Source of the DNA: Agarophyton chilense
Lineage: Eukaryota; Rhodophyta; Florideophyceae; Gracilariales; Gracilariaceae
Assembly (NCBI GenBank): GCA_030374765.1
Contig: JARGXX010000075.1
Coordinates: 1,612,001-1,676,000 of the forward strand
Direction: 5' to 3'
Length of the DNA: 64,000 nucleotides
In this document: positions 4,587 to 60,131 of the stretch, one piece after another
How the letters are laid out: each line of letters begins with the position of its first letter
How positions within the stretch are numbered: position 1 is the stretch's first letter
Position numbers and translations under genes: made by a program
Notes under the pieces: model-generated
Databases searched by the model: none
What the model saw: the letters and a program-made list of their open reading frames with translations, nothing else
What the model was told of the DNA's origin: nothing

Positions 4587-4617
4587 GAAACATGTTCACG
4601 CGAGGTGAACATGTTTC
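4587..4617. repeat. Perfect 13-bp hairpin with 5-base loop
   Basis: GAAACATGTTCAC is followed by GCGAG and then by its exact reverse complement. It lies at the left side of the Copia relic. It could be an element end or a junction, but no protein or RNA role is evident. Confidence 0.8.
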
Positions 4618-4619
4618 GC

Positions 4620-7352: not shown

Positions 7353-7891
7353 TGGGGTATAAACCATAACGGTAGCAAGGGTATGAGATCTGTCGGTTCT
7401 AGTGAGCGCAGGAGGTGGTCGACCTAGAAGGCGGAGATTTAGGATACCTATAAGGTGTGGCACCACCAGCCCCTGAAGGGTTCAACGGGAACGGCGGGCT
7501 TACTAAAACCACGATGTTACATAGTGATGCAGAGCGCATGCGGGTCCGGAAAACCGTGAGGACACTGAGCTGACCTCTATGGTCGACTTTAGAAACAAAA
7601 AGAGGTAGAAGTAGCCCAGTAGGAGCTTGTCTTTACCATAGTGATAGGATTAGCTATGCTTTGTTAAGGTATATATCTTACCAGCCACCCGACCTACGGT
7701 GGTGGGCCTTGCCACGTTGCCACCGGGTGTTGCACTTGAAGTACGCCTCGCTATCTACTTACTCTTATTTAAATAACACTAAAATCGAGAAAATACAAGC
7801 TAATTGCGAACCAAACCACTGTAGTACATGGCCCATGCAGGCAACCATCCCGCTCCACCACGTGGCATAATTACCCCATCAGTAAAGCTCA
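7353..7891 (-). repeat. Chromovirus LTR, left copy
   Basis: This 539-bp TG...CA repeat aligns along its whole length, in the same orientation, with 32,107-32,645, at roughly three quarters to four fifths identity by eye. It is either the 3' LTR of the minus-strand chromovirus to its right or a solo LTR. CTAC lies directly on both sides (7349-7352 and 7892-7895), which favours a solo insertion. The position and spacing favour a 3' LTR. Confidence 0.75.
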
Positions 7892-10800: not shown

Positions 10801-13800
10801 CGGTATTGCCAATATAGGAGGTGAAAGCAGCTCCGCTTTCAAGAGATGAAAGGCGTCCAGCTCGTCGTATTCTAGATAAGCAAAACTTTCTGGTTTTACT
10901 TCTGGGGGACGTCAGTTTAGAGGGGCTGCTATCTTTGCAAAGCCTGTGATAAACCTGCAGTAGACGTTGCATGACGTTGCATAATCCTATGAAGTATTGA
11001 ATCTTCGTTTGGGTTGATGGGCTTTTCGCTCCTTGTACTGCTCTGAGGTTTCCTTTGTCTACTTCGAGTTTTTCTGGGCTGATTGTAGGCCCGGGGTTCT
11101 CTACCTTCTGGTCGACGAACATGCACTTGATTAACCTCAGAATTGCGCCGCACTTTCTCAATAGATCCAATACAGTACAAAGGTGTTCGTGGTGCTCCTT
11201 CATGGTTTTAGAGTAGATTACCACGTCGTCTATATACACCAATGCGGTTTTACACCTTACTTCTGACAGTATAATGTCCAGAGCCGTTGGGAAGGTTGCG
11301 GGCACATTTCGTAAACCAAAAGGCATCCGGCGGAAGCGGTAGATACCAGCGTGACAGGTGGACGTGATCTAATCTCTGTCCTCCTCGAGTATCTCTATTT
11401 TCCACTACTCACAGATGGTATACAATGTGGTGAATATATTTGTATTCTCTATTGAATCGATGCACACATCCATTTTTGGTATCGGATTCGAGTCTCTTAC
11501 AGTAACGGAATTCATATTCCGATAGTCGATACAGAACTGCATTTGGGTTTCTCCTCGTTTTTGCACAAGCACCATGGGCTTGACCATTCCACGTTGGCGG
11601 GTTCAATCAAACCTTCATGGAGTATTCTCTGCATCTTCGGTCCTTCTACATCACGGGCTTTTGGGCCGGCCGGGATCGGTTGCTGATGGGGAGGCTTGGC
11701 GCCTGGCGCCAGTCTATCCGGTGCTGGGTCGGTGCTATCGCGCCCAGGCGTCCAACGACAATTGTTTGGAACGGTTCCAGTAGGTAAAGTATCCTATTTC
11801 AGTTTCTTTCCTCTTTTAGGCCCTCGTTATTTCTTCTCTCCAATCCTTCACCTCATCCAATTGCATGTTGATGTCGGTCTTCTCTTTGTTTTCCGCTTTT
11901 TCCTTTACCTTCTGTTCTTCATTCGCCCTCACCTCCCCCTCTTTATCGCTTACGTCTACGTAAGGCCATGCTGGTTTCATTGTGAAGATGTGAACTGGCG
12001 CCGGAGAGCTAATCCAAAACCGTTTTTTTGGGGAGCTTTAGCATGTGATTGCTGAAGTTGCTGATGTATACCTTGAACGGTTTGTTCGGTATATTCTCGA
12101 CAATTCTACTTACCATCAAGTTCACATGGTTCTGAATGGATACAATACCTGTTCGCAAGGATGTGATTTGTTCTACCAATTGGTAGGAAGGTGGAATGGA
12201 TAACCTCTGCGGTAACCGGACCTTATTGGATATTGTACGTACTGGTTGGTTTGCACTCTGGCTCCTGGTGTTTTGTTTTCTGGGGTCCTCTGCGCTTACC
12301 AATTATAGAAATACGTGGTCCATCGTTGAAAAATACTGTATGGGATCTGGGGAAAATACCCCGGATGTGCCGGCCGATGAACGATGTTTTCCGAATGCAG
12401 TCCGTTGCCAGTTGCTTGATCAGAATAAAGCGGACTTTTACCGCCAGGGTTGTAAATATGACCATGAAATAAGATAAGCATGGAATGAAAGAGGTTTATA
12501 TTTAGCATTTACTAGTGGGTTCTGCAATGTGCAGGGCTTTAATCTGTCCAAAATTCTTGGTGGTAATACTTTTACATTCATCAGATTGGGTCCCGCTCCT
12601 GTATCCAGGACGGTAATAAATGGAACCAAATGGTTAGTAGTAAACCTAAGGGTGGTGTTTACCTTATAGTTATTGTGTTTTAGTGAGCATATAGTGATTA
12701 GGTAATCCATAACCACTTTCTCTCCAGTCACCAATGGTTAATCATCCATAAACGAACCAGAGGGTATTGGAAGGCCTTCCGAGTGGGCCTGGTTAGGGGT
12801 GGTCTTAACTCCAAACGGCTGGAGTTTTTCGTCTTGGGCACGGGCTCAGTCTTTTGAATTCCGTCGGTGACCAAATTGACCTATTGATATGCAATGGGGC
12901 GCGCACTCGTGTTCCTTTTAGGGCGAGCCGCTGCGGGTTGGAAACCGAAAACTTCCCAATTAATCTGCCGCACCGGTAGGAGCATGGATCGTATTTGGGG
13001 ACCCATGTTCGTACAATGCCACGCCAAATAGTGGGAGGATAAACAAAAACCAGCAAAAGCGGTTGCCTGTTGCGGGGTCTCTTAACGCCATTGTGGTTGG
13101 TCTTTGTTGAACCTCATTGGGGTATGGCATTACCGTTCTGTATGAGGGCTGCCCACCATCTCAGATAGCATATGGTACTGCACAAAACTGGTGGTGTGTG
13201 GCGGATACCATACTTGAGGAAGTCGACGGTGGTTCCGACGGTGACATACTAGATACTGAATTTGACCAGTTGGAACTGGGAAGCGGATGTTCCCCAACCT
13301 GAGAGGTTTCGATCAGATGAATCGATTTCCTATGAGGTGTGTGCCCAGCTGATCCATAATCTGTTGTTAATGCTTCTTCGATGCCGAAGACTGACTGTTT
13401 CGGTTTATCCATTGTCTCTTTCGGTGTGGGGGCCACTGTCTACTTCCCCATTCGTAACGTATCCCCTAGGCCCTGTGCATAACGCGCGGGTGCGTTGTAA
13501 TCCTCTTCATGGGTTGTATCAAAGTAGTTCTTTACCCGAGACCTTATTCGTTTGTCAATGTCATCAGTATATAATGACTTTAAGCTTGAGGTAGTGGAAA
13601 CACTACCGCATCGGGAAGACGTTGCCCAAAACGAGCGTGCGTAATCCAATTTGGTTTGTCCTACTCCTTCACGGTGTGTGAGCACCTCAGATTAGGCCTC
13701 CTAAATCACCTCATCGGTTGCATAGGTTTCCAAAAGAAAATTCACCCCCTGTGGGTATGCAATCAGCATCTCTGTCTGTTCAGCATCCACCGCCGAGGTA

Positions 13801-14443
13801 TTGACCTCAAAGCGGCTGTGTAACATGTCAGCGGCCTATTTCTTGAGGTAAAACTGAAATAAACACATGGCGGCACCCTCTGAAACCCCATTTTGGTCAC
13901 ATGCTATTTTGAATCTCTGGAGGAAGGCTATGACAGTGATTGGGTCATCTCATAGAAAATGGGTATCTCCCATCTGGAAAATTTGCTTCCGGTGATGGTT
14001 ATTTATCTTCTGAGAAACCTCTTTGGTATACCCAGAGCTCTCATTCTCTAAGCTATAGGTGTGATAGTCAACCGCCTTTGTAAAAACGGCGTTCAACGAA
14101 ACGATCACCTGTATGCCGAGATCGTTGCCGGAATATTATCCCAACGAGTCATACCGTTTGGTCTCAACGTTACGGTTTTTTCCATTCTTTACGACAATAA
14201 TCCTTCCTTTGTTTTCGCGAACCCTTTTGGTTGTCGTCAGTTGACAAACCCGAATCAGTTTCCGAACTCCAACAGTCAGGGTCTGACCGGTGCCCTTTTC
14301 TCTTTGCCTTTTTGGTTTTCTTTTTTTTCTTACCAAATGGTCGTCGTTGTCGCTTCTCTTCCGAGCTCGATGATCCCTCTTTACCACCAGGGTCTCCGGC
14401 AATGGTTCCCTGCGCAGCACTACGAACAGGTTTCCGTAGGTAA
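7892..14443 (-). mobile_element. Ty3/Gypsy chromovirus fossil, gag to chromodomain part
   Basis: Read on the minus strand, this holds part of gag (about 14.4-13.2 kb), an aspartic protease region (about 12.7-12.0 kb), reverse transcriptase (about 11.6-10.8 kb), RNase H, integrase (about 10.1-9.1 kb, with a YHPQMNPQVERFHKT motif) and a C-terminal chromodomain (about 8.78-8.65 kb, with YYVRWNCYGPGDD). The chromodomain places it among chromoviruses, which use it to choose insertion sites in chromatin. It is old and heavily broken, with well over ten interruptions. It stops at 14,443, exactly where a DNA transposon begins; matching gag sequence and a 5' LTR resume at 31,392. No polypurine-like tract is obvious next to 7,891. 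Confidence 0.85.
14440..14443. repeat. Left target-site duplication GTAA
   Basis: GTAA abuts the left inverted repeat of the 16.9-kb transposon, and the same four bases follow the right inverted repeat at 31,392-31,395. A 4-bp duplication is within the range known for the CMC superfamily. Confidence 0.7.
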
Positions 14444-14464
14444 GTCTGTGTTTTCGGAAAGCTA
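14444..14464. repeat. Left terminal inverted repeat
   Basis: It begins GTCTGTG and ends GGAAAGCTA, and matches the reverse complement of 31,371-31,391 at 19 of 21 positions. Confidence 0.75.
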
Positions 14465-15202
14465 GTATTGGGTTCTAGATTTTTAGACTGGGTGTGCTAG
14501 AAAGTCTATGGTTAGCATTCATAGATTCGCAGTTTTTTTATTCCAGAATTTCTAGCACAAAAATACTAGTCCAAATGAATTTTGGGGAGAATGTAGAAAA
14601 CTAGCAAACATCCGTACTAACACTGTCACACTAGGAAGAATGGAAAAGAACTTGGGAGATATATCTCGATACTCATTAATCCTAGACCATGAAATCTACC
14701 GACAATGAAAGGAATACTGAACGCTATCTAGCGCAAGATCATTCATTTCGCGCAGGTATCGTAGCTAGTATGAGACGTTCAAATACCCTGAACATTCAAT
14801 TTAATGTCCTCCAATGACCCTAATGGCCAGTGCATAATACGGCGATCCTGCAACTGAGACCCGAAACGGGTCCTCGTTGCACGTGAAATGAGATCTTCCC
14901 AATTCGTATGCGGTGAACCGCTTTGCATCACGTCCCCCGATCGTTACGCTTCACCTCGCGTCGCGCTTCGCGCGACGCGAAGAACCCTCCATTCTCCGAG
15001 AACCGTCCAAGCAGTACACCAGTTCACCCTTCATCAATCCCAAATTCCTACCTAAGTAGGTAGAAATCACAAAATCATACAAGTTAGAGCCCAATTCCTC
15101 GCTTCATGCAAGCACATTCTATATAAACAAACTTACCTCTGTCAATAATGTGCTCCTTGTATTGCCTCCACTTTCTTCATTCGCATCAATAAATAGAAAA
15201 AG

Positions 15203-15994
15203 GTCAGATCTCCGTCACAAAACAAACCCAAACCACATCAGCACGCTACTCACCTATATAGCTACCACTTATCCCATCTCTTGTCCAATCTTGCCCCCTC
15301 TTCTCTTGCAGCAGCAAACAACGACAAGTCAGATCTCCTTCCCCAACGGCAAGTCAGATCTCCTTCCCTAACGCATACCAGATACGATGGAAGCTCGCAC
15401 TTATGATGCCACCATTTCCCGATCAACCATTGTCTTAACAAGAAAGAAATATAAGTCAGACTTCCACCAAAAATCGAAACCAAATTACTTCAATGACGCA
15501 CTCAACTCCTAAGAAACTTGCTCGGCCCAGTCCTTCTAGAATATCTCCCTCCTCACCCAATCGCTCCTTTCTGTCGCTTCGCAGCAGCAAAAAGTAACAT
15601 GTCAAAACTCATTCCAAAAACAATACCAGACACACGTAGCACTCGCACTTACCCGCACTTCCATCATTTTCCCTTTATACAACGTCGCCCGCACTTTCGT
15701 AACAATAAAAAAATACAAGTCAGATCTCCGTCAATAACAGAAAGAAATTCCTCAGCGACGCACTCACCTCCTAAGCCGCTTGTTTGATTCACTTCCTTCA
15801 AAGAGGTTCCCCTCCCCACACAATCTTTGCTCTCCGTCGCTTCGCAGCAGCAAACAAGAACATGTCAGATATCCTTCCTAAATCTCTACGAGACACCAGT
15901 ACCACTCCCACTCACCTTTAACTCAACGAATCCTGGCCCCCCATTCCAATTTTCTGTCGCTTCGCAGCCACAGTCAAAAATATGTCAGGTCTCC
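15203..15994 (+). repeat. Sub-terminal motif array and imperfect tandem repeats
   Basis: GTCAGATCTCC or a close variant occurs at 15203, 15328, 15353, 15455, 15719, 15864 and 15984, always in the same orientation. Several copies are preceded by CGCTTCGCAGCAGCAAA (about 15,574, 15,834 and 15,956 in variant form). Larger units of roughly 260 bp can be aligned between about 15,482 and 15,740 and after 15,740, and weaker copies continue to about 16,360. In CACTA elements comparable arrays bind the element's accessory protein; that role here is inference. The rest of 14,466-16,786 shows no gene. Confidence 0.6.
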
Positions 15995-16786
15995 GTACAG
16001 ATTGCAGGGCAGAACACGTAGCAAACTCACCTGTTCATCATGATGAGGGCCGCTGAAATAGGATTCCCATGTTTGCAACCAGAAGGAGAAGAAAGACACC
16101 AGGTCAATGTAGCGCGCCGCGTACCTCCAAATCGCAACCCACTCACCCGCCTACCCTCCACCCCACGCTGCATCACCCATCGCTCCCGTCGCTCGTCGCC
16201 CGCTTGCGCATGACCACAAACAGTTTCAAGGCCACAGATCAACACAGACGACGTACATCTCAATCGCAAGCTGATCAACCCGTCACCCCCCACACCTCAC
16301 CCCATCACTAAACGCCCCGGTCGTGCTCCGCCCGCTCGCGCAAAAATAGAAACAGAGTCAGCACTTGTGAAACGCAAGCGCAATACCGCTTCTGACGCAC
16401 CTAGAAACCGCAGAAGGTCCACAAGGTCCAGAAGTCATCATATCACAGGATCTCAAGATCCAACAACCGCTCATCCGGCCAATACTCACAATCAATACAA
16501 GTACACGCCGCCGCTCAAAAATATACAACTTTGAATATTTTCATTCCAACCCACTTTCCAAGCCACATATGCGCCGTTTCTGTCTTGCCGCACGACTTGT
16601 GGGTGTCTTTGGCGCATCACTTGACCTTTTTGAGTACGCCTCATAAGTTTAAACTCTCCCCACCGCCCTCGTCGTGCATCTTCTTCACCTCCAGCCTGTA
16701 TATAGTATCCCCCTCTCTCCTCGTCCTACGTCTTTTTCACCTCCCCGATTTACTTTCCGAGATCGCGCGCAGGCACCCTCCACCAC

Positions 16787-19416
16787 ATGCAGCCTTGTCG
16801 CTTCCCAAGGTGCACCTTCGAGACAAAAGGTCATACCTCCCTTGTCCAACACCAGCGCCGGTGTCGCTACCGCACCACCCGCAACGCCTTCGTCGCCACC
16901 ACCCCAAAAGATGGAACTCAATTCCCACCACGCACGAAGCGCCCACGCGTCCAGACCGCAGACACCCGCTCCGTTGGCATCTCCAACCCCCTTTCCAACA
17001 TCGATCCGCTGGTAGAAGAAGACGAGTACCATTCGAGCCAGCTCGCTCTGGCCATACGCTCCGCAGACGCCGCCCACATTCTCAACGCTTCTCTTCGCTC
17101 CCCTTCTCCCAGCCCTCGCCCACTCGTGAAGCTCCATCCCATCGTCTCCTACATCTCATTCATCGCCACCAAGCTCGGCAAACGCAAAGCCGACGAACTC
17201 ATTACCCTCCTCAAGGACCCCAATTACTCCCAAACACTCATTCAACAGGTTACCTCCGTCTCCCACTGCCTTCAACTTCATTCCAAACTATTCGAAGACA
17301 CTGTCGGCTCCATCGGCTTCAAATCCACAACCGTTCGTCACAATCCCTCAAACATCACTGCAACTCTCTACCTCAAAAACCCCGTCGATGTCCTTCTCCA
17401 GCAACTTCGCTACGCCACTCGCGCTAACACCTTCTTCCACCCCGTCAGACAGTGTTCTTCAAATGGTTCTCCTGCACTCGCTCATCCCATGGCTTCAAAA
17501 CTCGGCAGTTGTGTTTATCCAGACCTCAAACACCACATCCTCTGTTCTCAAGACCCAGATGTTATTTGGCACAACGTGGACATCACTAGCATGGAATCTT
17601 TCATCGGCTTCATCCAGCTCTACTCGGACAAGTCTTCCACCTCCCTGAAAAGCTCCTCTATCACCTCCTACCCCCTTCACATCACACTCCTCAACTTTTC
17701 AGACTCCTTCCGCCGCCATTGCATCTCCCGCAACTACACCCTCCTTGGCTACTTCCCCACCTCGTTCGACGCCCCTTCCTCCCCATCCGACGAGGAATCC
17801 ATCGAAGGCCACCTTCTTTCTTCAGCCCTCAGCCGCACCACCCGAATGGAACTCATCCAAGAATCTCTACAAACCATCCTCGAACCCCTCGCTGCAGTCG
17901 CCCTCAAGGGTTTCCCTTTCCGTGATGAAGACCAGGTCATTAGACAGTGCCACCCAGTCATCGCAAACTATGCTGCAGACATCCCAGAAGCAAAAGACAT
18001 CCTCGCCATCCTACACGGCACAAACCCATCCAAGCCGTGCCACAGATGCCTAACACCTCGCTCCGACCTCAACCTCCACCTCACTTCCGTATCCCCTCGA
18101 ACTATTTCCCACACCCGTCGCACCAGATCCGCACACGACGCCCTTCTCAAGGATGCCAACGACGCCGAACAACTTCGCCGACCGCGCGTAGCAAAAACTC
18201 TCAGAGACCAAGCAGCATCTCTCCTCCCCACAAACTCCCTCTCCGCGTACCACTCCTTCTTCGAAACATACCCTCTTCTTAATATATCCCCACTCCTCAC
18301 CCCTTACTCCATCTTCTCCTTCGAACCCCTTCACAATTTCCATCTGGGTATCTCCAAGCTCGTCAAACTGGCAACCATCGAACGCTTGAAGTCCGACAGC
18401 CTCTTCACCACTCTCGCGTCCTCCAACGGCTCCTCGAAATCCTTTAATTCCATCCGAAGCTCCCTTCTCACCCAAGCAAACAACATCCTCGCAGATATCG
18501 AAGCCAACTTCTCCGCACCCGGACTGCACATCGACTTTTACACACCCGAAAAGGGTACATACCTAAACGGGTTCTTCACCTTGGACGGCATCAAATGTAT
18601 GCTCGAGGCCAAAGACTACCGCGCTGTAGACATGGTCTTCCCCTTCATAGGTGCCTCCTTCGACCTTTGTTGCGGTGAAGTTGACACAGCTCCCATCACC
18701 TCCATCTTCACAGCATACGCAGACCTCTTCATCGCCGCACTCCACCACAACACCACCTCAGAATGGAGAGACCAACGACTTTGCGCCCTCCAGGAACCCA
18801 TCAAGCACTTCAAGTCTCTCTGCGTCTCCGTCCTCGCCCATTTCCAAGCTTCTCACTTCGGAACACTGAATTCCACCTTCTGGACCACATCATTGCTGAT
18901 ATATATCTATACTAAGGTCTTCGATTCTCTGACTCCGGCATCTACGAACATGCACACCTCCTCTTCAGAAACCACTATCGACACACATCCCGAAGATCTT
19001 CAACCGCTCACAGAGAAACAGTCGACGCAATCCAGCTCACAGAAGGCTTCCGGAACTCAACCGCCATTCCCCACCACATTTCCTCCTTCTCAAACTCCTC
19101 CTTCCGTCGTGCTCGGCGGTTTCCCATGGTCGGCGACGGTACCACCGTGCTCTTCCGCGACATCATCACTGCAAAGAAGTACCTCCGTGCAAACCGAAAC
19201 TGCTCCAATGCCACTCTCTCAAACATGTTCACCTCTTACACCCTTTCTTTCATTACCCAAATCTCACGCGACGCCATTTCACCCTTTCACGACCTGTGCC
19301 TCGACGCTCTCGGACTTTCTTCATCTTCCCTGTCTCTCTCCTCTCTTACCTTCTCCCTCGTCAACTACGCCTTCATCCCCAGCGGGTTCACCCCCGGTTT
19401 GCGAGACGTCGACTGA
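16787..19416 (+). pseudogene. CMC superfamily (CACTA/Plavaka-like) transposase, frame broken
   Basis: The frame starts at the ATG at 16787 with a C2H2 zinc finger at residues 3-26 (CRFPRC...HQRRC). About residues 260-330 hold LYSDKSS followed by PLHITLLN...LLGYFP, the layout of Plavaka-type transposases around the first catalytic Asp. About residues 385-425 hold a HPVIANYAADIPE stretch and a CHRC motif. Near residue 505 is FSFEPLHNFHLGISK, the usual LHQ/LHN-type block. The frame changes near 18,865. The downstream frame, with a FHLLDHII block, a TAA at 18,913-18,915 and then a long open stretch, ends at 19,416. The original frame runs on to 19,693 with Ser/Pro-rich sequence that looks non-coding. 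The intact protein would cut and rejoin the element's ends. It is likely inactive in this copy, with one frameshift and one stop seen. Confidence 0.75.
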
Positions 19417-20002
19417 ACATTCAACTGCATCCGCTTCAGAGAACCACCAGTCCCCGTCACACAGCGCATATTTGCCACCTCCACCTTCGGTCCTTCAAAA
19501 CTTCCAAAGTTCTCCCACATTCTCGTCTCCGGTACTCCACCACCTGACTGCAACTTCCCCACTGTTTGGGTCTGCAAGCTCCTCGCCCTTCTTCGCTTTC
19601 CCAAAAAAGATGAAAATCCTGACGAACGCGAATACGCTTTCGTCCGCCTCTCCGAACTCACAACTTCCCTTGATTACGCGGATGAAACCCTGAAGTGCAT
19701 CACCCTCCGTTGGTCAACGGACGATGAACAGGACCACACCATCCCCCCCGCTGGAAACAGATAACAACGGTCTGGATCCTATGTCACACCTTGGTTCGGT
19801 CTCGATCCCTTCTCCGCCATCCTCAGCTCTGTCCATATTGTCCGCCAGAACTGCCTAGCACGCCCTTTCTTCCAGCCCCTCCCCTGGCATGAAAATCGCT
19901 TCTATATCAACATATTCTACCGCGACCCACGAGCGAGAGCTGGTTTCTCTACAAAAGAATCAACTTGAAGCAAATGACACGCATCTTCTGATAATAAAGT
20001 TA
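19417..20002. other. Short non-coding stretch between convergent transposon genes
   Basis: This lies between the 3' ends of the transposase (+) and the accessory gene (-). It contains AT-rich sequence around 19,990-20,010 (aataaagtt) that could serve as a polyadenylation signal. Nothing else is recognisable. Confidence 0.4.
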
Positions 20003-22829
20003 TCACTCATCAAAAATATCTTGTTCACCTCCGCCTTCCACCCCCACCCCATCTCTCTCCTCGCCTTCCTCTTTCACCTCCCACATTTCTTCCTCCTCCC
20101 CTAACAACTCCCTAAACTCGCGTTTTTCAGGCACACAACGTCCGACGTAGCAATCAAATACATACCCGAGAAAAGTCGTCATCTCCTCCGAAAACACCTC
20201 GTAATGAACACCGAGATAGATCAGCTGGTTTGAAGGCATCCAAAACGCAACGGTCCCTTCACGTTCCTCATTTCCCAGCACTTCAGTCGGGTCCTCATCC
20301 TTCACACCAGGGTTTACCAGCTCCTCTCCGTACTTCTCTTCCACCTTCCTTCTCGCTGTCCGTAAGATATCCTCCACAGCAACCGGCAGATGCTTCGCAT
20401 ACAGTTTCGAAAACAGCATCTGTCGCTCCCCTCCTCCACCCATCTCCTCATCCAACGCCTCTACCACAGATGCAATCTAAGCATCCAAGCGGGCCAGATG
20501 CATCACACTTCCATCCACATACTGTGTCTCTCCTTCCTTCCACGGTTGCTCTACATCGTACCCCATAGACTCTCTCAACACCTCCACACTCAATCCGTTC
20601 TTGAAGTACAAGTCATCAGTTTCATCCTCATACTTTGTCTAGTTCACATCGTACCCAGAAAAACATAGGTTCTCCAGCTTGTCCAACCTCCACGCAGATA
20701 TGACGGGCTCCCCATTCGCGTCTTTCGGCAACAACTTTTCCCGAGCCTCCATCTTCTGCTCTTTATAAAACACATTCAGTTCTTCATCATCCTCGTTAAG
20801 AGGTTTTCTAGCAAGTAGAGAATACCCCAGACCCAAAATTATCCTATCCCTCGCATTCCTTTTCCGCAACCCCACAGCATCACTGAGAGCCTGTTTTATC
20901 CGCCTCCTCAAACACGTATCCCTCCTCAACTCCTCTTCACACAGCTTCTTTATCCCCATCCCCGCAAATTTTCTCCATATTGGATTCTCCAACTCCATCC
21001 GCACCACATGCAACAATATCTCATCACTCCCCCCCTGAAAAGGCGGAGAGTAGGCCTTCGGTGCCCACGACTTTCTTCCTGTTGCCAGCTCCATAGGATC
21101 TAAAGGCACCATCTCCTTTTCATTTATAATCAGAATAATCTGATTCCTTCCCGCCCTCACTTCATCTGCACGGTTTCACCAGTTTCGCTCCGGCTCCTTC
21201 TTTCCGAAGCACAACTCACTCGTCTCCTCCTTTTCATAACGCAATATGTTCTCGTAAACTCTCGAGGATACTCCAATAAATCGCATATCCACTTCAATTC
21301 CATACCGTTTCCGACCCCCCTTCCCTTCTTCGCCACCCACTTGTCCTGGTCGACCACGAAGAGTCTCTCGCAATGACGTCAGCAGCATTTCCTTTTTCCT
21401 ATCTTCGCCCTCCAGCCTCTTCATATCCCTGTGTGCGAGTTTCAAGCTTAGTTGCAAACTTGCATTGTCATCCCTTGCCCTTTTAAGCTCCCCCTTCATG
21501 TCTCCAAGCTTGGCCAACAGCTGATTCCGCCCCATAAACTTCGTTTCTGCATACGTCATCCCCTTTTTTCGCCTTCCTTCCACGGGCGAATTGCATCCTC
21601 ATCCTCCTCATCCCCACCCCAGAGTCCATCTCCTTTTCAACCTCCCCTCCCTTCCTCCACTCCCTCACACTCTGGTTTCTCGGAGGTCTCCCCGCGCCCA
21701 CTCGGTCGTTTGACCCCTCAGCGTCCCCTTGTTCGACACTCCTCACTGCATGATCCGGGGTCTGTCGATAAGAAGACCGTTGTATTGATGTGCATTCCGG
21801 AACTCTGCGAAACTGCACCCCCTTCCTTCCAACCACGACTCCTTTTCCCTTAGGCTCCGTCCCTACACGTTTCTCCCCGCTCTCGCTTGGTATGGCCCTT
21901 GAAAAAAGGAACTTGGCCTTTATTTCGTCCCGCACTCCCACCTGGAACAATTTCGTCCTTTGATTCGTCAAAAACGTGTTCTTTGAAACAGCAGTGCCTC
22001 CGCGTACCTCATTCATTCCTCAACCATGCCCCCTCTGCCTCATTGCCTTCTCCCTTTACATGGAAGTTAACACCATGGGAAGCACTACGCCGTCGCCTCT
22101 CAGCTTCTCTCTCGGTCCCATTCTCTTCGTCACTAGCTAAGGTTGAAATGTCGTGAACGGCTCGATTACGAGTCACCGGACCTCCCGAATTTCTTTCGTT
22201 CCTCCTCACCACCTCGCTCACCGTACCTTCCGTCGCAGACGACGAACCTCTTTCTTGCTCCTTTTCCTTCACCGTCTTAGCAGACGGCTTCTTGGATGAA
22301 AGTGCAGACGGAGTGGAGAACGGTGTCTGTGGAAGAGTCGCCGCTTCGCCAACATAAACTTTCATCATTTTCACGTCCCAGCAATAGGAAGAGTTGCTCT
22401 CCATATCTCCCATACCGTTCGGTACGGTATCGTATCTGTAGTTTTGAACGGATAAGGATAATCCATTTCTTTCTCATCCTAAATCAACACCTTCCATACC
22501 ACCACGGGTTTCTCCTTCGCCTTCCCGACCAGTTTGTGACCATGCCACTCTCTCACCAAATCTCCCGTAAGCCTCCCCGTCGCATCAACCGCACCCCTTA
22601 CAAATGCCTTCCCCACTACTTTCTTTTCGCCGTTCGGCGTGGTCAACAACAAAGTCACCTGCTCGTCAGGTTTCGGCTTCCATGGTGGGGTTCCTACCTT
22701 ATTCGCCGGCGTTGCTCCGCTGCGCGTTGTAGGCATCGCTTCCTTCCTGCTAGAAGCCGTAACAGGCTGCTTGGGTTTCCGAGAACTCCGAATGAGCCTC
22801 CTGTTCTCTGCGTTTTTGTGCCGCATCAT
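20003..22829 (-). pseudogene. Transposon accessory gene, TNP1/EnSpm-like start
   Basis: Minus-strand open pieces follow one another: 22829-22479, 22413-22009, 22016-21483, 21583-21176, 21160-20639 and 20467-20003. The first piece (116 codons) contains PNGEKKVVGKAFV and ends KPVVVWKVLI. This resembles the small beta domain of the second protein of En/Spm (CACTA) elements. The 21.5-kb piece has a predicted coiled coil rich in Lys, Arg, Glu and Leu, and the last two pieces look like folded acidic protein. The pieces abut but change frame, so the gene is either intron-containing or broken by about five interruptions. In En/Spm the partner protein binds sub-terminal motifs and helps excision. A related domain occurs at 29,041-29,392 on the other strand. 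Confidence 0.45.
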
Positions 22830-23085
22830 GTGAACCTTTCTTTAAGCGCCTCGGAATCTCTCGTAGACCGTCACGAAAAGCAGGGCGCGCTGACAACGTA
22901 AATGAACACTCGTTGCGGTTCGATAGGGATCACGGGCTTGCTTGACCTCTCGCCGACGATGGCGAACAGAAACGCGTGCAGACAAAGGGAATGAAAGCTG
23001 CTTGAAATCCTCTTCACGTCCAAACGAATGGATTTCTTCGGGTTCGTGATCTGAATGTGTTCCCTTCGAGGACAAAGGTCTGCAA

Positions 23086-23576
23086 TTACAATTTGCACAC
23101 CTGGTACAAGCAGCGTAAGAAACGGAAAAAGCGTGTGCGACTCGAGCCGTGCAATAAGAACATCTGCCTCAAGATGATTGACTGCGAAAATACCTTTTTT
23201 TGCTGCTGCGCTATTTGGCGAGCTGCTCGATACCCAACGCAGAGACAAATCTCCAATGCGGGTCCCATAGTAGCTACGAGGGCGTCTAAATCTGTTTCGC
23301 ATAGCTTTGAGTCATCAAGTGCCTGACTACTCACTTTATCAATGACAGCAACATGTGCATCTCAACGAATGATATGTTCTGACTCACATTCGGTGTTTCA
23401 ATTCCGTCATTTCGTCGAGTTGAAGCGATTCGACCACGTTCGCGCCGTCGCGGGATTTCATCCGGGAAGGTAATAGGAGTTGTTGTCTCCTCTGTACCAA
23501 GCCACTTCTCAGCGCTCAATGACCTATGAAGATCGGCTCTCTTTCGTAACAACCTCTCTGTTGAATCCCATTGCAT
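23086..23576 (-). CDS. Possible two-exon gene of unknown function
   Basis: The ATG at 23576 opens 63 codons (to 23388). These are followed by a candidate 65-bp intron, 23387-23323, with GTGAGT at its start and GTAGTCAG at its end, in phase 0. Exon 2 (23322-23086) continues for 78 codons. The joined 141-residue product would be basic, with an Arg-rich middle and a helical second half (ALDDSKLCETDLDALVATMG). I do not recognise it. It lies downstream of the DCP1-like gene on the same strand, so both may come from one captured host segment. The splice model is a guess from consensus alone. Confidence 0.3.
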
Positions 23577-23899
23577 TCACAACATGTTTTTACGGCTAAT
23601 GCTTTGCCTCTCGTACTCTTTGACCGCATCTACTGTACTGTCTTCGGTCTCAAGAGCGCACAGGGTGGGATGAGTTTACGGATTATCGAGGCCGAAAACC
23701 AGTGGAGGCGATGGATTTACCGTCGAGCAATTGGAAAAAGTGAATTCAGAGCCCTGAGTAATTCTTTTTCGCATACCGCGGTCACTCGAGCGTCGACCAT
23801 TGCGACTAGAGGTTCGGCTTTTGATGTTGTAAATCGGGCTTATTCACGAGTTCGTTTGCAAACTAAATGCATTCTTCCATTCTTCATCATTCGAATCGT

Positions 23900-24751
23900 T
23901 CAGTGGCGGGTTGTTTCTTTGATCCAACGTTGTATAGTTGCTGCGACACTTTCCATCACGGAAGAAGTGTTCACATCTGGCGGCAGAGTGGCACCGGCTA
24001 CGCCGTGAATATGCTTCAATCCGGGAAAGAAGCGCTCTGGTGAATTATCTTGCACACTAGACGCCTCACTCGGTGTGGGGGTTTGGATTGGTTGCAAGCG
24101 TGCATCGATGGGCAGTTTCTGAGGACGCGGGTTGGAAATTTGAGGACGGGTCTTTGCGTTCTTGATATTGGCTTTACGTGGGGCGCGCTTTTGTGGATGT
24201 TGAGTGCGTGGGGAGGTATCGAGAAGGCGGGCAGATTGGATGGGTTGTGATGCAGACATTTCGGAGGATTGGGAGGTGGAGGGCATCGCGACGGGCGATG
24301 ACTGAGTCGCAGAGAGATTTCTCCCTTTTAAAAGAATCTGGAGAAGTTGAATCACGGAAGAACCCTTGGGTTTTTGATAAAACCAGATTCCGATTGTTTT
24401 CTTTTTGGAGTTTGTGTAAGTGATCATCTGGTCTTGAAGCTCGATCTCCTTGTTTCCAGTGACGAGGTCATCGGAATTGTTTTCAAGACTCTTGTGATTT
24501 ATGGTGAAAATGCGGTGGCGAGCGCGGGCGGAGTTGTTCGGATGGTTCAGATAGAGCTCGACGACAAAGAGAGAGCCTTCGATATCCAGTCGACGCCACG
24601 CTTGGTTGTCGTCGAGCTTATGGAGACAGAGGTGCGAGGCAAGTTTGAGTAACTTTGTGACAGCTGGGTTGGCCCTTTGAAGCACGGACAAGTTCATTTT
24701 AGCGGCGATAGCACCACGACGTACAGGGTTGAAATCAATACCAGCCGTCAT
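23900..24751 (-). CDS. DCP1: DCP1-like mRNA decapping subunit, inside the transposon
   Basis: The 283-residue product starts at ATG 24751; a second in-frame ATG at 24697 (MNLSVLQR) lies closer to the usual DCP1 start. Residues about 19-145 match the EVH1 domain of DCP1: NLSVLQRANPAV, then a W-RRLDIEGSLFVVE block, then a stretch ending IGIWFYQ, which corresponds to the conserved IWFY of the family. A Ser/Pro-rich linker follows. The last 25 residues (SVMESVAATIQRWIKE) may be the C-terminal oligomerisation helix. DCP1 activates the decapping enzyme DCP2 in cytoplasmic mRNA decay. The frame is uninterrupted. Its position within a 16.9-kb transposon is odd: it is either captured cargo or the host's own gene carried along. 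Whether another copy exists elsewhere cannot be seen. Confidence 0.75.
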   Translation of the reverse strand: MTAGIDFNPVRRGAIAAKMNLSVLQRANPAVTKLLKLASHLCLHKLDDNQAWRRLDIEGSLFVVELYLNHPNNSARARHRIFTINHKSLENNSDDLVTGNKEIELQDQMITYTNSKKKTIGIWFYQKPKGSSVIQLLQILLKGRNLSATQSSPVAMPSTSQSSEMSASQPIQSARLLDTSPRTQHPQKRAPRKANIKNAKTRPQISNPRPQKLPIDARLQPIQTPTPSEASSVQDNSPERFFPGLKHIHGVAGATLPPDVNTSSVMESVAATIQRWIKETTRH

Positions 24752-25511
24752 ACTCACGGAAAGCACGAGACCGTTCGGGGCGCGAGATGGATCTCACGGA
24801 GACGCGCTTAAGAGCCGAACGGGAGAAAAAGGGGAAGCGGCGAGGTGGGGGGGGGGGGATTGGATGGTAGACATGGTCGCATTGTTTCGCAAGGCGCAGC
24901 TGTGAGCCGGTTCGGCAAGGATTTTCCAGCTCGAAAATTGTCTGTTCACAAGGGCTTGCTCGCGACATGGGGAAGGCGGGAGGGAAGCGAAGGGATGAGG
25001 TTGACCATTGGGAGTTGAACAGGGACCGCAAGATGCAACGCGACAGCGCATATAGAGAAGATACACAGGAGTGGGGGGAGCAAGTGCAGCGATCGCGACT
25101 GTTAGAGGAGCTGGACGTAATCAGCCGCGCACCGCGTTAGGCCATCGGAAAAGAGGATGACGATTCGGCTGCGCGGTTCCGCGATATTGTAAAATACTAC
25201 CGATGTATTCTGCCACAGATGATTGGCTTATGTATGCAGCAAGGTTACGTGAAAGAAGGAAATTCATTGAACGAATGAGGTTACGTGAAAGAAGTAAATC
25301 CATTGGTTGAATGAGGTTACGTGGAAGCAGTCTCAAGTTGTAGACACCCGACCGGTAGCTTTTCATATTCGACGGCCATAATCACGAGCTCTTCACCCGC
25401 ACATGACTGAACTTTGTTGAAATTACCTAGCAGTTCTGAGATCTTCCAGACATTGCGAAGCAGTTTTTCTGCATTAAAAATAAACGAAAGAAATGTCAGG
25501 TAAAGGACGGA
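24752..25511. promoter_or_regulatory. Upstream region of DCP1-like gene and of the following ORF
   Basis: This interval separates two divergent open frames. It has a run of 12 or 13 G near 24,848 and a short direct repeat of gaggttacgtgaaagaag around 25,240-25,300. No TATA element is clear. Confidence 0.35.
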
Positions 25512-25859
25512 GTGATCGGCTCTGATCCTAATCATTATTGTCTCATATGCAAGGAACCAATTCACGTCATTTGTGGCACATCACCGGTGAAACCGATAAT
25601 GGAAAAGTATGGTTCAGACAAGTACTTAGAGGGCTGCGTCGTTTGCAGTGCATATAAAAATCCAGGCGGCGCAAGTGGCGGAGCGAGAGGTGTGTGCAGT
25701 GCCACTGAGGGGAAGCAAAGTCGAGACAAAACTGATGATCAGAACTCAATTAAAGTCGTTGGAGAACTAATTTCATCCGATGTGAAGGCATTGGTATATG
25801 TTGAAACTCAAGACTCTCCGGAGAGGAGAGTTTTCAATGAGCATTTGCACTACATGTAA
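25512..25859 (+). CDS. Small Cys-rich zinc-ribbon-like ORF
   Basis: The 115-residue frame begins MIGSDPNHYCLICKEPIHVICG and later has CVVC, giving a CxxC...HxxC...CxxC pattern that could bind zinc. A similar head (C-x2-C-x3-H-x2-CG) is common in transposon-derived and ubiquitin-related proteins. The rest is polar. It may be the start of a longer broken gene, since frames to about 26,400 also look partly coding. No function is assigned. Confidence 0.35.
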   Translation: MIGSDPNHYCLICKEPIHVICGTSPVKPIMEKYGSDKYLEGCVVCSAYKNPGGASGGARGVCSATEGKQSRDKTDDQNSIKVVGELISSDVKALVYVETQDSPERRVFNEHLHYM

Positions 25860-26946
25860 GTTGCTGGGAATCCTCGTGCCGAAAGCTCTGAATGTGATCG
25901 TGCTCGCTTAATTCTCCCAAGAACTCCGCACAAGGTATACTGCACCGACACTCAGCTTGTGATTTGATAAGCGTCTAAAAAATGCGAAGAAGGTCCGCAA
26001 ATACCGTGCCAGACACATAGGAAGGGATACCAGCAACGCACGACGTCGATACCAGGAGAAGAGAGATCAACGCGATAGTGAGTCTGCTAGCAATGCCACC
26101 TCAAAAAGTAGATCTACGGGACAAACCCAAAGACCACGGGTATTTACTACACCTGCTGGAAGCAGACCAAGCATGGCTGACGCTCACCATCTGCAAGGTG
26201 TATATCACGTTCACACGGTTACCGACCTCTATGAAGTTCGGCGAAGCTTTCATAAATACACTGCATCGAAGCTTCCTGAACACGAAAAGAAGAAAAACGT
26301 TGAGTTGCAGGCCGACGGGGATAGGGGACGTCAAATAATGTTGGTAACCGAAGAAATCAAAGCGACTGATGCCAGAAAAATGCCGTAGAATTGTAAATGA
26401 TACGGCAAAGCGAAACAATCCATCACATATGTCGAGCAATACTGACGGTCATTCCGAATCGATGAATTGAGCCAGCCATAGTACGGTTCGGATCATTTGA
26501 AGATCGAAGGTCGGAAGAGGATGCCGTGAGTACAATCGAGCACATGCCCTTTGTTGAAGACATTAATTTCAATCTCGGATGGTTCACGAGAAAGAACACA
26601 CCTGCATCTCATTCTTGTTTGTTTCTTGCATCGCGTTTGCCAGACGTACCTCCTCGGCGCGTTTGTTGCATTTCAGCCTTTTTGAAGGATAAGAACATGG
26701 TGACATTCGGGAAATCTCTTGAAAAGAATGAAGGCTCGGCGTTTGAGAATAAAGAGACACATTTTCCGTGACTCTTGTCAAGTGAACGGAGTGGTTACAT
26801 TCTTCGTCCGTTTCTTTTCTGCTTTCCTTGTTCCCTTCCTTTTCTATCCGGAATTGCTGTGGGACGAGGTCTCGTTTCTTCTAGCACTGTCTGTGAGAAA
26901 TTTATGATTGGTGATTCTTCGACAAGCCGGGTGCGGGGTTAGTTGG
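25860..26946. other. Decayed coding-like sequence, no gene called
   Basis: Short open pieces (for example 26,173-26,388 and 26,526-26,771, both +) lack recognisable motifs and change frame repeatedly. They may be remnants of transposon cargo. Confidence 0.35.
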
Positions 26947-27170
26947 GGACAGGGTTGCGGCGGTGGTGGAGGGGAAGTTAGGGCGGGGGTTCGTTGCGGA
27001 CGGGGTTGCTGCGGTGGTGGAGGGGAAGTTGGTGCGGGGATTAGTTGCGGACGGGGTTGCGGCGGTGGTGGAGGGAGAATTAGTGCGGGAGCTAGGTGGA
27101 GACAGGGTTGCGGCGGTGGTGGAGGGAACCTTGGTGCGGGGGTTAGTTATGGACGGAGTTGCAGACGAGG
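26947..27170 (+). repeat. 51-bp minisatellite, about 4.4 units
   Basis: Units start at about 26,947, 26,998, 27,049, 27,100 and 27,151. The core is gggttgcggcggtggtgg followed by a more variable half. The 51-bp period equals 17 codons and one frame stays open through it (repeating VADGVAAVVEGKLVRG). A looser duplication of about 140 bp (about 27,172-27,300 against 27,315-27,480) follows directly. Confidence 0.7.
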
Positions 27171-29040
27171 TAGCGGCGGTAGGTGATGTTTTGGTTGTGG
27201 TTATACAAATGTTGATTGTGAAGATGGAGTTCGGTGTGGCATTGTATTTAGCAGGAATTCGGGGAAGGTATGTCGCACTGAGAAAGGAAGTGGAGAGGAA
27301 ATGGCAATGTTATGGTTAGTTGCGGACGGGGTTGCGGCGGAAAATGATGTTTTGGTAATGGTGGTACAAACGGGGGTTGTGAAAGCTGAGTTGGCGTTTC
27401 CAGTGGATTCAGCAAGAGATCGGGGAAAGGGTGTTGCCCTGAGGAGGGCGCTGGAGAGAACGTGGATCACGGTGACGACGGTTGAGGCAAAGTAATATGA
27501 AGTTTGGAAGGAGTCGGTGCGCGGATCCCAACAAGATGGCGAGTTCGAGGGTTGCCTTTCAGAAGGTGGGTGCGTAACGTGCAGCGTTGGATGCACCCTC
27601 GGTGAAAGCGCTGAGGGAGAAGGGAGGAGGGGAATCCAGGGCTGCGGGGATGGGGATGGCGGGGTGCGGCTGTATGGAGGGGCGCGAGCAGCGCGGTAAA
27701 CGTTTGGTGCGCGGCGAGCTGGGGCTTAAGGATGACTAGGGTTGAGAGAGAGGGAGAAGGAGGGTCCAGGGAAGGGGAGGGATGGGGTTCGTGGTGGTTG
27801 TGGAGGTGGTGTGAGCATCGCGGTTGCCGGGTGTTTTGGACCTCCACAAAGAGCCGTGCGGGTATGCAGTGAAACCGGGACATCGGTTCTCTTTTGAAAC
27901 AACAGCGCGCGCCCCATTTTGGACGTACAAGGCACAAAAGCGACGTGCGCGCTGCAAGTGTGCGACGTGTGGCGCACCCAAATCGCAAACGCCATATCCG
28001 GTTGGCTTTTCGCCATCAACTTGATGGACCCTGGTCTTTCGAGCAAGCCACGCGCCAGTGAATTTCGCTGTGCAGACTCTTCAGCGGTTTCGGCCCGCAC
28101 CGTCTCTCCGAACGCGTTTTATTCGTTCCTTCTTCCAATCCCGAGGCCAACCTCTCTCGTCATCGCCGAAAGAACACTCGCCGCTTGGCTCGCTCCCTTT
28201 CGCGCCAATTCCACCTCACGCCCCCAGACCTCAGCATCTCGCTTCTGGATATCCAATCGCCTCAACCTCTTGTGAAGCTTCGACAAAGTGCCAAACACAC
28301 TATTCTCTCTCTCTAAGATGCGGCAACCTCAGAAGACGTAGATCCGCTGCCTGTCATGCTGTCTCTGGCGGAGGTTGTGCTTTGTGCAGCTGTACAAAGT
28401 GAGAAGAGAGATCCTTTTATTCAAGCAGTACTCACACTACCACCGCACCACCAAGATGCCCTGGCTACTTCCATTTGCCGCAGAACCGTCGAAAAGCCAA
28501 AGGAAACGCGCGTGCTAGGGCATTTCGTAATTGACAGAGGGCGATGACTCAACGCGGAGCGAAAGTCACATGACGGCGGGGAGCCTCTTAGGAAAAGAAA
28601 AATGGTGTGCAGGGCGTGGAAAGAATGGGTGCGGATAACGGGCAGTCAACAAAATCGGACTCTCTGTAATGACCGAGGGGGGTTGGGAGCCCCACGGAGG
28701 ATCGCCTCAACGTCACCTGTAACCCACATCCGCGCTTCAGAAAGCACCTATTGCCCGATTAGGAGGTTTGAAATCACGCGGAAGAGTACTGTGTGCCTGG
28801 CGAGAGCTGTAAAGCTGTTGTTTCGAATTCAGCTAGGGATTGTTGCGCTCGATAGGTGTTTAGCGACTGTTAGCGCGTTTCGAACAGCTGACGATCGCCT
28901 TTACGTGCTAAAATGCGCCGCAGTGGCCTGAGGCAAACCCGGAAGTCGAAGGGTAACCCTTCCGGCTGGAGTCAAGGCAGCGTTAAAAAGCGGAACGTAG
29001 CGAGATGGCGATAACGAGATGAGGTGCGAAAGAGGCAAGT
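27171..29040. other. No recognisable gene
   Basis: Apart from the duplication next to the minisatellite, this is GC-rich sequence with short open frames on both strands. A plus frame at 27,824-28,024 has a CKCATC cluster but no identifiable domain. Confidence 0.4.
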
Positions 29041-29392
29041 GAAGTGAGTTGGACACTGGAGGCTGAAGAGAGAGTGAAGCTTCTGGTGCAGGGACCGAGT
29101 CGGACGAAGAAGGTGGTTGGTACGGCGGTGGTAGTGTCGTTGAAGCTCCCATCGGGAAAAAATTGTTGCAGGAATACTTCGACTGCAGTAAAGTTGGAGT
29201 CAGGATCTGGTGGCGATCTACAACGCAAGAATGACAGACGAAAAGGGGTTGAATGTATCCCTTTCGTTATCTCGATTCAGGTTCTGTGCCGAAAACGCTG
29301 GGAAATATCGACGAAAAGAATCTGTTCACTTGGAAGACGAAGTTCATGGCAACCTTCCACCTGTGACAGCCGCGAAGATCACCGCTACCTAG
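29041..29392 (+). pseudogene. Second copy of the accessory-protein beta domain
   Basis: The plus-strand translation contains EERVKLLVQGPSRTKKVVG and, after a frame change near 29,200, AIYNARMTDEKGLN. These match, in order, DEQVTLLLTTPNGEKKVVG and the region around VVVWKVLI of the minus-strand accessory gene at 22,829-22,479. It is a diverged, interrupted homologue in the opposite orientation. Confidence 0.4.
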
Positions 29393-29518
29393 ACCCACCC
29401 ATCCCGAACGCGAGGACGAAGCCAAAGCCGCAGCCGAAGCCTAGCGCCACGCGCTGAGAACCCTTCTCAGACTCAGTCGTGATGAGAGGACATCAGGCAG
29501 AGGGGTACGATTGGCAAC

Positions 29519-29827
29519 GTGAAGACTGGGACGAAGCATGGGAACCAAAACACCGTCACTTTGAAGGGTCCCAAGGGCAACCAGATCGTTGCATCGAATC
29601 GTGCGATGTTGGATAAACGAATGGGACAGATATGTGTGTGCTCGGGTTCAGAAGATAACCGAGGCGCGGTGATGAAGATGTACGCTCCAAACAATAGGGT
29701 AATGGTGTTGTGTACTGGGAATGGATGCCCGCGGAAAGAGCTACATGCTGACTTTCAGACGTTGACGAACCGTGACAAGATGGATGGGAAGAACCCGGGC
29801 TATTTCATGATGGCAACTGAAAGGTAG
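29519..29827 (+). CDS. Unrecognised 102-residue ORF
   Basis: The frame holds four Cys in two pairs (ICVCSG and LCTGNGC) separated by about 30 residues, compatible with a small zinc or disulfide unit. It follows the accessory-like copy and may be its C-terminal continuation in another frame. Function is unknown. Confidence 0.25.
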   Translation: MKTGTKHGNQNTVTLKGPKGNQIVASNRAMLDKRMGQICVCSGSEDNRGAVMKMYAPNNRVMVLCTGNGCPRKELHADFQTLTNRDKMDGKNPGYFMMATER

Positions 29828-30888
29828 TAGTTTCCAATGTGGGTGTGTGTAAGATCTCATACCCCTTACGCAAAGAGCAATGCGGAGTTGGAGTGGGTCG
29901 CGCAACGGATGTATGTGAAAAGTACACGATACCGCCGATGTCGATATTCGTTGGGAGGGGTGATTTCTTTCATACTGGAGCGGGAAGAGCGGACAGTGTC
30001 ATGTCGGATTAGAAGCTGTTTCGTTACCATATGTACGTGGTTCCGGAGAACCAGAACTTGCCTGATGGGGTGCAACTGAAAGCCAAGGTTTAGGAAGGAC
30101 TTTGCGTTTTGAGAGAGAATGGCGTGTATGAATAGGAAAAAGATATGGAAATGGATGTTTAAGTCCGAGAGGATGAGGAGGGAGTGATTGAGGTGGTAGA
30201 CGAATGAAAAGAAAGGGGAGATGAAGAGGGTGGGAGCTATAAACCTTTGAAAGGGGTGAATGCGGGGGATGATGACGAGGGGAACTGAGTTGTTAAGTGA
30301 AGAGTTTTTTTATTTATTGTTCACTTGGCCATAAAGAATAAAGTCTGTCATTTTTCTAGTGTAAGTGTTAGTGCTATTCGAAGGGAAGGAGGTGTCTTAT
30401 ACGTGATAATGGGTATACCCCGAATGCGGAGATGTAGCTCTTGAATTTGTATTCCAGTTCGTAGTTGACGGCAGCAGAGGATATGAAGAGTGTGCTGAAG
30501 AGGGTGTTGGTGATTAGGGGAGGGGCGGCTGTGGAGGAGGTCAAAGATGAGGGCTTGGAACCTTCCAGGAGGAAGTGAGCGAAGATGACGGATACGACTC
30601 GGTCGACCAATGTTCGAATGCAGAGAACGATGTCGCCGACGAATTGAGCCCGACGTAGAGATTTGGAGACGGTGGTGTAAGAGATGTAGAGAATCCGTTG
30701 GGGGTGGCGGGGGGTGTTGAGGAGGAGAAGTAGATGGTTGAAAGTATTCACGGCATGGAAGTCATTCCTGGAGACGCCCACTTAGCCGCCACCGGGTTGG
30801 GAGTGCTTCGGAAGGGAAGAATGGTAGGGATGTAGTGCCGATGGTAGGATGCTTGAAGAGTTTATTGGTGGTTGTTAAAGGTAGATAA
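29828..30888. other. Mostly non-coding right flank of the transposon
   Basis: A 135-codon minus frame (30,781-30,374) with hydrophobic patches is open but has no recognisable motif. Sequence around 30,305-30,350 is AT-rich. Confidence 0.35.
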
Positions 30889-31360
30889 ACTAGCGTTTCA
30901 CTTCCATCGAATGAGATGAAAACTAGCGCTTCAGTGCATTTCTGTTCTCCATGCTTCACTCCTAGTATTTGCGGGAATGCCTGAAGGTGTGGTATACGAA
31001 AAATCTGAATTAATTGCTTGCACATTGCCGATTCTTCATTTTTGGCAGATTTTTTGACGATTTTCTTTGCCCCCCACGCTTCTAGCACCTGGAACTAGCC
31101 TTCCGAGAACAACAAGTTGGGGTGAGGGTGTTGAGCCAGGCTTTTGTCATTCACATCTAGCGTTTGGCATCCAAACATAGACGGTAAACTAGCAGGGGCT
31201 TTTGCATTCGTTTCCCATTCATAATGTGCAGGATGTTGATATAGAATCAAAAGCCAAAACTAGCTGGCACTCTAAAAAATTAACAGAAATTACCTCTGCA
31301 TCCGCGATCCGTCATTTTTCGCACATTTTTTGCCGGATATCTTCCCGCATACTAAACTAG
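30889..31360 (+). repeat. Right sub-terminal AAACTAGC motifs
   Basis: AAACTAGC or a near form (AACTAGCC, AAACTAGA, TCTAGC) occurs around 30,889, 30,920, 31,081, 31,094, 31,159, 31,186, 31,258 and 31,354. The left end has similar CTAG words between 14,461 and 14,636. Short motifs clustered at both ends fit sub-terminal binding sites. Confidence 0.5.
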
Positions 31361-31370
31361 AGGCTATTAA

Positions 31371-31391
31371 TAGCTTTCCGAGGACACAGAC
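31371..31391. repeat. Right terminal inverted repeat
   Basis: This is the inverted partner of 14,444-14,464, followed at once by GTAA (31,392-31,395). Confidence 0.75.
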
Positions 31392-32106
31392 GTAATAATA
31401 CCCTGGGCCCTCAACCGCTGGAGGCGCTGTCCTTCTCCGAGTTCGGTCGTGTGGCTTCTCAATATTTTGGAAAATAGAAGGTTGGTTTCGGCATCACCGA
31501 AAACATCATGAAGTTTCTGAGAGGTGGCTTGGGCCTCCACTTTGACGGTATTTGCTTTCGCTTTTACTTCGGGTTGGCACACGCCATGATTCTGTAGGAA
31601 CAACGTCTCCAACTGGCCCATTTGTTCTCTTACCTCGTTCTCGAGGTACTTGATGATAAATACGGAGACAGGCTCCATCACTTCCTGATAGGCCCAATCA
31701 ACCACCACACGGGTAATAGCATCAATATCCAGACGGAGACCAGGGGGTCCTTCCTTTTGTCTAACCACATTGCTATGTCGGGCTTCTATCGAGGGACTTC
31801 CTGTCTGTCGACCTACCGTTTCGACCTGAGTTCTTTTCGGCTTTTGAAAAAGTTCCTATGGGTTGTCCAGGATTGGTCGTAGAAGTCTTCCCCGGGGGGA
31901 GGGGGGGTAGATCACCAACTAGTGCACTAGGCGCCCTAGTGACACGCCTTGTCGCGTTTTTAGATGATTGGTCCATTGAGATAAACTAATGAGTCAGTAG
32001 TTGCTGTTTCAGTGAATATTTCACCAAATAATAGGGATTTCACTCCAAATCCTCCCTTTCAATTCCAAACGTGGTAAATACCAATTCCTATGTCTGGGGA
32101 CCAAAA
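31392..32106 (-). mobile_element. Ty3/Gypsy chromovirus fossil, 5' gag part and primer site
   Basis: The minus strand holds a gag N-terminal region (about 31,980-31,392) whose LDIDAITRVVVD stretch parallels MDVDAFTRVLVD of the second chromovirus. A primer-binding site beginning TGGTCCCCAGACA lies at 32,103 and downward, three bases inside the LTR. It ends at the GTAA next to the 16.9-kb transposon and is the other side of the insertion that begins at 14,443. Confidence 0.75.
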
Positions 32107-60026: not shown

Positions 60027-60131
60027 GATGGGGGACGGGTAGCGTTCGAAGGGCAGCAGCAGCAGCAGTAGTAGCAGCAGCGGAGCTGGGGCTGTCGGAT
60101 GCGATAGAGACGACGACGACGACGACGATGA

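Follow-up and report, generated by a model that had tools for sequence, protein, structure and literature searches.

The DCP1 open frame in the window (the whole 64,000-nucleotide stretch of Agarophyton chilense DNA that was analysed) is best explained as a captured 5' fragment of DCP1, carried as passive cargo by a Plavaka-type DNA transposon while the host keeps a full-length DCP1 at another locus, on C88; we give this reading a probability of about 0.9. The frame (23900..24751, minus strand) runs from 24751 down to 23900 for 283 codons plus TGA with zero internal stops and contains both IEGSLFVV and IGIWFY. It contains a DCP1 domain of the EVH1 type that scores above the curated threshold of Pfam PF06058 (E 6.3e-25, 87.8 bits against 22.5), with frame residues 17-138 matching profile positions 2-116 of 117, and the solved structures closest to it in sequence are 2lyd (Decapping protein 1, E 1.7e-10) and 4b6h (mRNA-decapping enzyme 1A, E 1.2e-7). 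The profile search proposed in the original prediction therefore bears out its claim of a real DCP1 sequence with an uninterrupted frame and an EVH1 core. Its description of the gene as apparently intact holds for the frame, which is unbroken, and fails for the protein: the host protein has 756 residues, of which about 470 at the C-terminus are absent from the cargo. The window DCP1 is a 5' fragment of the host gene, intact as a frame only.

The prediction left two origins open, a captured duplicate or the host's only DCP1 made mobile, and suggested looking for a second DCP1 elsewhere in the genome. When the 79.8 Mb assembly (135 contigs) was searched with the DCP1 piece at the DNA level, 22 rows were returned, made up of 15 full-length element copies including that of the window, three broken copies (two pieces each, paired by us), and one row that no element copy explains, C88:2348545-2349514. 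At C88, DCP1 lies within a 946-codon open frame and measures 756 aa counted from the start codon that it has in common with the cargo; in alignment to the window, this region shares with the element only the DCP1 piece. The captured piece (23900..24871, minus strand) is 90.6% identical to C88 and comprises about 113-120 bp of 5' flank (~120 bp upstream of the start codon in the window) and a truncated coding part of 857 nt, or about 286 codons. Four long orthologues are 52-64% identical to the host DCP1 in the first 160 residues, and a C-terminal block, FRAVVQRMLTDR or a near match, is common to the host protein and all four. We take C88 to be the host gene because it holds a 756-aa DCP1 with this block, which the cargo lacks. 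Short fungal DCP1 proteins likewise lack a long tail, so the missing block marks a loss relative to the donor rather than exclusion from the DCP1 family. A separate full-length gene from which the element-borne piece derives upholds the captured duplicate and rules out the cargo as the sole host DCP1. A protein search for relatives of the cargo returned one protein (47% identity over 50%); since protein searching missed the host DCP1 too, the lack of a close relative carries no weight as to expression of the cargo.

The element spans 14443..31392 (16,950 bp), as delimited by inverted repeats, ends common to copies, and flank comparison, the last of which also places a TA target-site duplication at 14441..14442 on the left and 31393..31394 on the right. 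Its inverted ends (14441-14481 and 31354-31394) are 41 nt long, 78% complementary and 16,872 nt apart, and no longer inverted-repeat pair was found in 8000-46000. Most copies begin and end with CGTCTGTG..CACAGACG; in the window copy the first base is altered. Ten genome regions around DCP1 matches were fetched, namely nine element copies and C88, and both element ends aligned in eight of the nine (largest block 90.8-95.2% identity). The left end of C75b begins 8 bases in when aligned to the window element, and C97 aligned only from 16952 on, with its left end outside its alignment. By eye, a 2-bp duplication surrounds 9 of 10 assessable elements among 11 examined: TA in the window and C115, AA in C103, C28 and C61, CA in C121a and C21, and CG and TG in two short relatives, L037 and L038. 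The one failure is C3, with mismatched flanks (AA vs CT), and the eleventh element, C75b, has lost its left end and hence could not be assessed. The predicted position of the gene, well within the inverted ends of a 16.9-kb element, is thus confirmed by the ends and the 2-bp duplication (14441-31394), and placement of the gene in normal host DNA is contradicted by the recurrence of these ends in other copies with different flanks. We give next to no credence to the idea that there was no capture and that these are ordinary DCP1 gene duplicates or assembly duplicates near repeats: some copies do lie on short contigs and are mutually close (C60 and C69), so that they could be haplotype duplicates, but homology between copies breaks off at identical terminal bases although their flanks differ, most copies are separated by several percent divergence, and remnants of a second gene lie on both sides of the DCP1 piece.

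If the window flanks are joined with a single TA, a 255-aa frame stays open across the join, and part of it resembles DNA at about 42.5 kb (E 3e-5, 43 residues); by eye, we take both to be retroelement coding DNA. On the minus strand, 10769-11368 and 39027-42710 hold frames that, judged by eye from their motifs, resemble pieces of an LTR-retroelement polyprotein. The element seems to sit within a copy of a related LTR-retroelement.

The element carries its own transposase frame of Plavaka type (16706..19693, plus strand), with 995 codons, no internal stop, and a match to PF18759 at E 4.9e-22 and 79 bits (cut-off 26.3); a single CxxC occurs in it at residue 445, and an HNFH, with H(2)H spacing, at residue 543. 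Pfam searches with seven further element frames returned no family. In its available text, a description of fungal Plavaka transposons reports 2-3 bp target duplications, TET/JBP accessory genes in some families, and termini of TGT..ACA (PlavakaA) or CATCA..TGATG (PlavakaB) (PMC12730594). Our element resembles them in transposase family, in its 2-bp duplications (by eye, as above), and in bearing accessory genes, as some of those families do, and differs in termini and in cargo, which here consists of fragments of host DCP1 and of a second host gene, gene X. Because the termini differ, we file the element as Plavaka-type by its transposase and not as PlavakaA or PlavakaB. There is also a likeness to the giant repeats of Amoebidium, large units flanked by or carrying Plavaka transposase and other genes; these are described, in the portions available, as tandem clusters of up to 50 kb with intron-poor genes and many tyrosine recombinases (PMC11244446), unlike the bounded 17-20 kb element with host-gene fragments seen here. 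When the two element ends served as queries, 116 and 104 first-look candidates came back, of which 40 were scored in either case; the DCP1-bearing elements are therefore a subset of the family. Two further transposase matches, C10:934676-936784 and C117:1464042-1466150, have equal scores, are 53% identical to the window's, and each lie in a 1137-aa open frame without stops; they are possibly a second, younger Plavaka-type lineage.

Gene content and arms vary within the family. The window's right arm (~28.3-31.1 kb; 28314-31117) is unaligned in seven of the eight copies in which both ends aligned, with only C103 aligning over most of it, and it aligns with L037 (C75:1764600-1772760) and L038 (C77:31700-39680), so that two alternative right arms exist within one element family. 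L037 and L038 are 8-kb internally deleted relatives without the transposase and DCP1 region, and they carry about 2.5 kb absent from the window element. We rejected them as pre-capture ancestors since both lack element positions ~711-12409, transposase and DCP1 together, which indicates internal deletions. Inside the element, 26884-27189 is a tandem array of ~51-bp units whose number differs among copies. The right arm of some DCP1-bearing elements holds a broken gene resembling Rieske / pheophorbide a oxygenase (PF00355, PF08417), found at L022:5245-6883 (the element on C21), on C61 and C97, and at C75:831219-831950 and C75:862392-863123, and absent from the window copy; it is likely a third host cargo. 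A 4.2-kb block at C75:861.4-865.6k shares the Rieske-like segment (97.3% to C21, 99.7% to C75b) and may be its donor or another copy.

The surroundings of the DCP1 piece reveal an older capture. On its 3' side, 23359..23896 (minus strand) is 91.3% identical to a host locus on C90, and on its 5' side, 24868..24951 (minus strand) is 91.7% identical over 84 bp to the very same locus, that of gene X. The C90 locus has a 905-codon open frame and is matched at 99% identity by a transcript-derived protein of 897 aa (record GEZJ01001107.1), its next named relative being from Gracilaria domingensis (50% identity), the sole taxonomic evidence within the analysis, which points to a probable red alga; a Pfam search with the N-terminal 712 residues found no family. 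At five places (C34, C2, C92, C68:2820k, and C115:1516k), both flanks are present with ~1.2 kb of gene X where DCP1 would be, and a sixth, C95:1701k, retains part of that stretch. Window 19900-23350 likewise has matches close to these five, although at C92 the match is partial and lies some 11 kb off; C92:283579, which has only the 3' flank in the flank search, was left out of the fetched regions. Since five elements hold gene X where others hold DCP1, gene X was captured before DCP1, and DCP1 replaced ~1.2 kb inside the older gene X fragment in a nested capture. Both captures begin slightly upstream of a start codon, the junctions have no extended homology (by eye), and about 363 bp of the transcript's coding sequence are missing from the elements that carry gene X. 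An in-frame fusion of DCP1 and gene X was considered and rejected: read by eye, the junctions lead neither the host reading frame nor its shifted version into the frame of gene X.

About 18 element-borne copies of DCP1 are present in the assembly, the 18th (C68:618-625k) lying outside the fetched regions. An identical 8-bp deletion relative to the host is found in all 17 element rows that cover the site, and through this deletion a TGA falls in frame at the 3' capture junction, giving the window frame its stop; because the deletion is common to every row that can be checked, we conclude that there was one capture, later amplified. A tree built on ~1.1 kb has a star-like shape, in which the branch to the host measures 0.028 and that to the window 0.053, and several internal nodes are weakly supported. 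In two blocks of 12.7 and 6.6 kb, the elements on C21 and C61 agree at 99.06% and 99.10%, but their flanks differ, hence a recent transposition; codons 21 and 211 of DCP1 are stops in both. This shows that an element with a dead DCP1 has transposed recently at least once. On the preferred reading, a DNA transposon that encodes a Plavaka-type transposase of its own first took up a fragment of gene X. In one such element, ~1.2 kb of this fragment then gave way to ~0.97 kb from host DCP1, made up of 113 bp of 5' flank and the first ~286 codons, and the element afterwards spread to ~18 insertions. Capture probably took place at the DNA level, through faulty repair of gaps or ends: the captured stretch breaks off mid-gene with no poly(A), and its junctions are without extended homology. 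The process is transduplication. From then on, in this reading, the DCP1 piece has drifted without detectable constraint on the protein, and the open frame in the window is a chance survival.

No protein-level constraint was detected on the DCP1 cargo, in tests of limited power, and we rejected detectable protein-level selection on four grounds. First, a stop at codon 21 is common to 12 of the 17 element rows covering that codon, and 12 of the 15 full-length copies have at least one stop, the stop-free ones being the window, C28, and C121a; the only frameshifting indel among the 15 is common to C41 and C70, and this scarcity of frameshifts, like the three open frames, speaks against simple decay. 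A copy that takes up 25-44 changes at random would stay free of stops with a probability of 0.34-0.14, so three open copies need no selection. Second, in the synonymous/non-synonymous comparison among copies that the original prediction proposed, private single-base changes in 17 element sequences number 52 non-synonymous to 16 synonymous, as expected under neutrality (75% non-synonymous, drawn from the spectrum of those very changes, 70 in all; p=0.89); the window alone contributes 6 and 2, and the host control only one of each. Third, 61 sites in residues 1-143 are identical in the host and the four orthologues, and 9 of the 25 differences between window and host fall on them, with 10.7 expected at random, a pattern of no constraint on orthologue-invariant residues; a deficit at these sites appears in none of the 17 element sequences, many of whose changes are common among them (lowest P 0.245). 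Fourth, mean identity along the element is highest in the transposase core (0.955-0.967) and amounts to 0.903-0.912 in DCP1, with only the tandem-repeat segment lower (0.884). Set against nine copies, the window gives pN/pS values of 0.65-1.37 in DCP1; in the transposase, over its first 722 codons, they are 0.61-0.79. The suggestion that the duplicate alters mRNA decay finds no support in these results.

A truncated, EVH1-only DCP1 that works, or at first worked, as a dominant-negative, binding decapping partners and stabilising transposon mRNA, is highly improbable: the piece begins just upstream of the start codon, has the whole EVH1 profile without the C-terminal block, and is open in three of 15 full-length copies, but most rows share the codon-21 stop, transposition went on recently despite that stop, private changes and changes at invariant residues occur at the rates expected without selection, and DCP1 is among the least conserved parts of an element whose transposase is the most conserved. 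Also in its favour, pN/pS between the host and the 17 copies is below 1 in all 17 (0.44-0.97), a value that includes the host's own constrained branch and leaves room for early constraint. That an EVH1-only DCP1 or RNA of the fragment dampened host decapping or silencing soon after capture and so aided the burst of the DCP1 subfamily, with the protein role later lost and an RNA-level role that could persist, strikes us as quite unlikely. The fragment might instead act as a nucleic acid, its likeness to an essential host gene protecting the element against silencing by small RNAs, or small RNAs made from it lowering host DCP1; a conflict of this kind is described for captured essential genes in plants in the available part of a review (PMC13317346). 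This would require no open frame, and it agrees with a donor similarity still of about 90% and with ~18 DCP1-bearing copies against the six gene-X-bearing ones examined, but DCP1 identity among copies falls below that of most of the element, so nothing holds the sequence close to the donor, and we regard it as very unlikely. Drift of a passive, captured fragment remains our preferred reading, and it carries a warning: inside a repeat, the presence of an open, domain-bearing frame says nothing for a functional gene, and an annotation made automatically could list spurious DCP1 paralogues in this case.

Comparable captures are known in other lineages. In plant Pack-TYPE elements (Pack-CACTA, Pack-MULE), as presented in the accessible portions of PMC8903248 and PMC13317346, host coding DNA between terminal inverted repeats is likewise moved and multiplied while the donor stays, and here too a host coding fragment lies between inverted repeats with target duplications and a donor elsewhere. 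Pack-TYPE elements are, however, defined there as non-autonomous, whereas the same element here has the 995-codon open transposase frame; the capture works like Pack-TYPE, and the element is not filed as such. A word search of the available text of these two sources found no alga named. In Pseudocercospora fijiensis, a hAT transposon captured and amplified histone H3 (PMC6710886, in the parts available), which is similar in that a housekeeping gene was captured by a DNA transposon and amplified, with copies inactivated and the original kept. The fungal case involves a hAT element and hundreds of copies inactivated by RIP, compared with ~18 copies of a Plavaka-type element that show ordinary-looking drift and whose cargo is a 5' fragment lying inside an earlier capture. 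Among the matches listed in open-licence literature, we recognised no capture of DCP1 and no Plavaka capture in red algae. The case presented here is a clean, well-bounded Plavaka-type host-gene capture for which a single assembly contains the donor gene, the state before capture, the borders of the captured piece, and the descendants, and the nesting lets the capture process be traced stepwise. Elsewhere in the window, 59058-62384 holds two head-to-head frames that abut at 60611/60612: the minus-strand one is for triosephosphate isomerase, the plus-strand one for a fused glutamine amidotransferase / histidine-biosynthesis protein.
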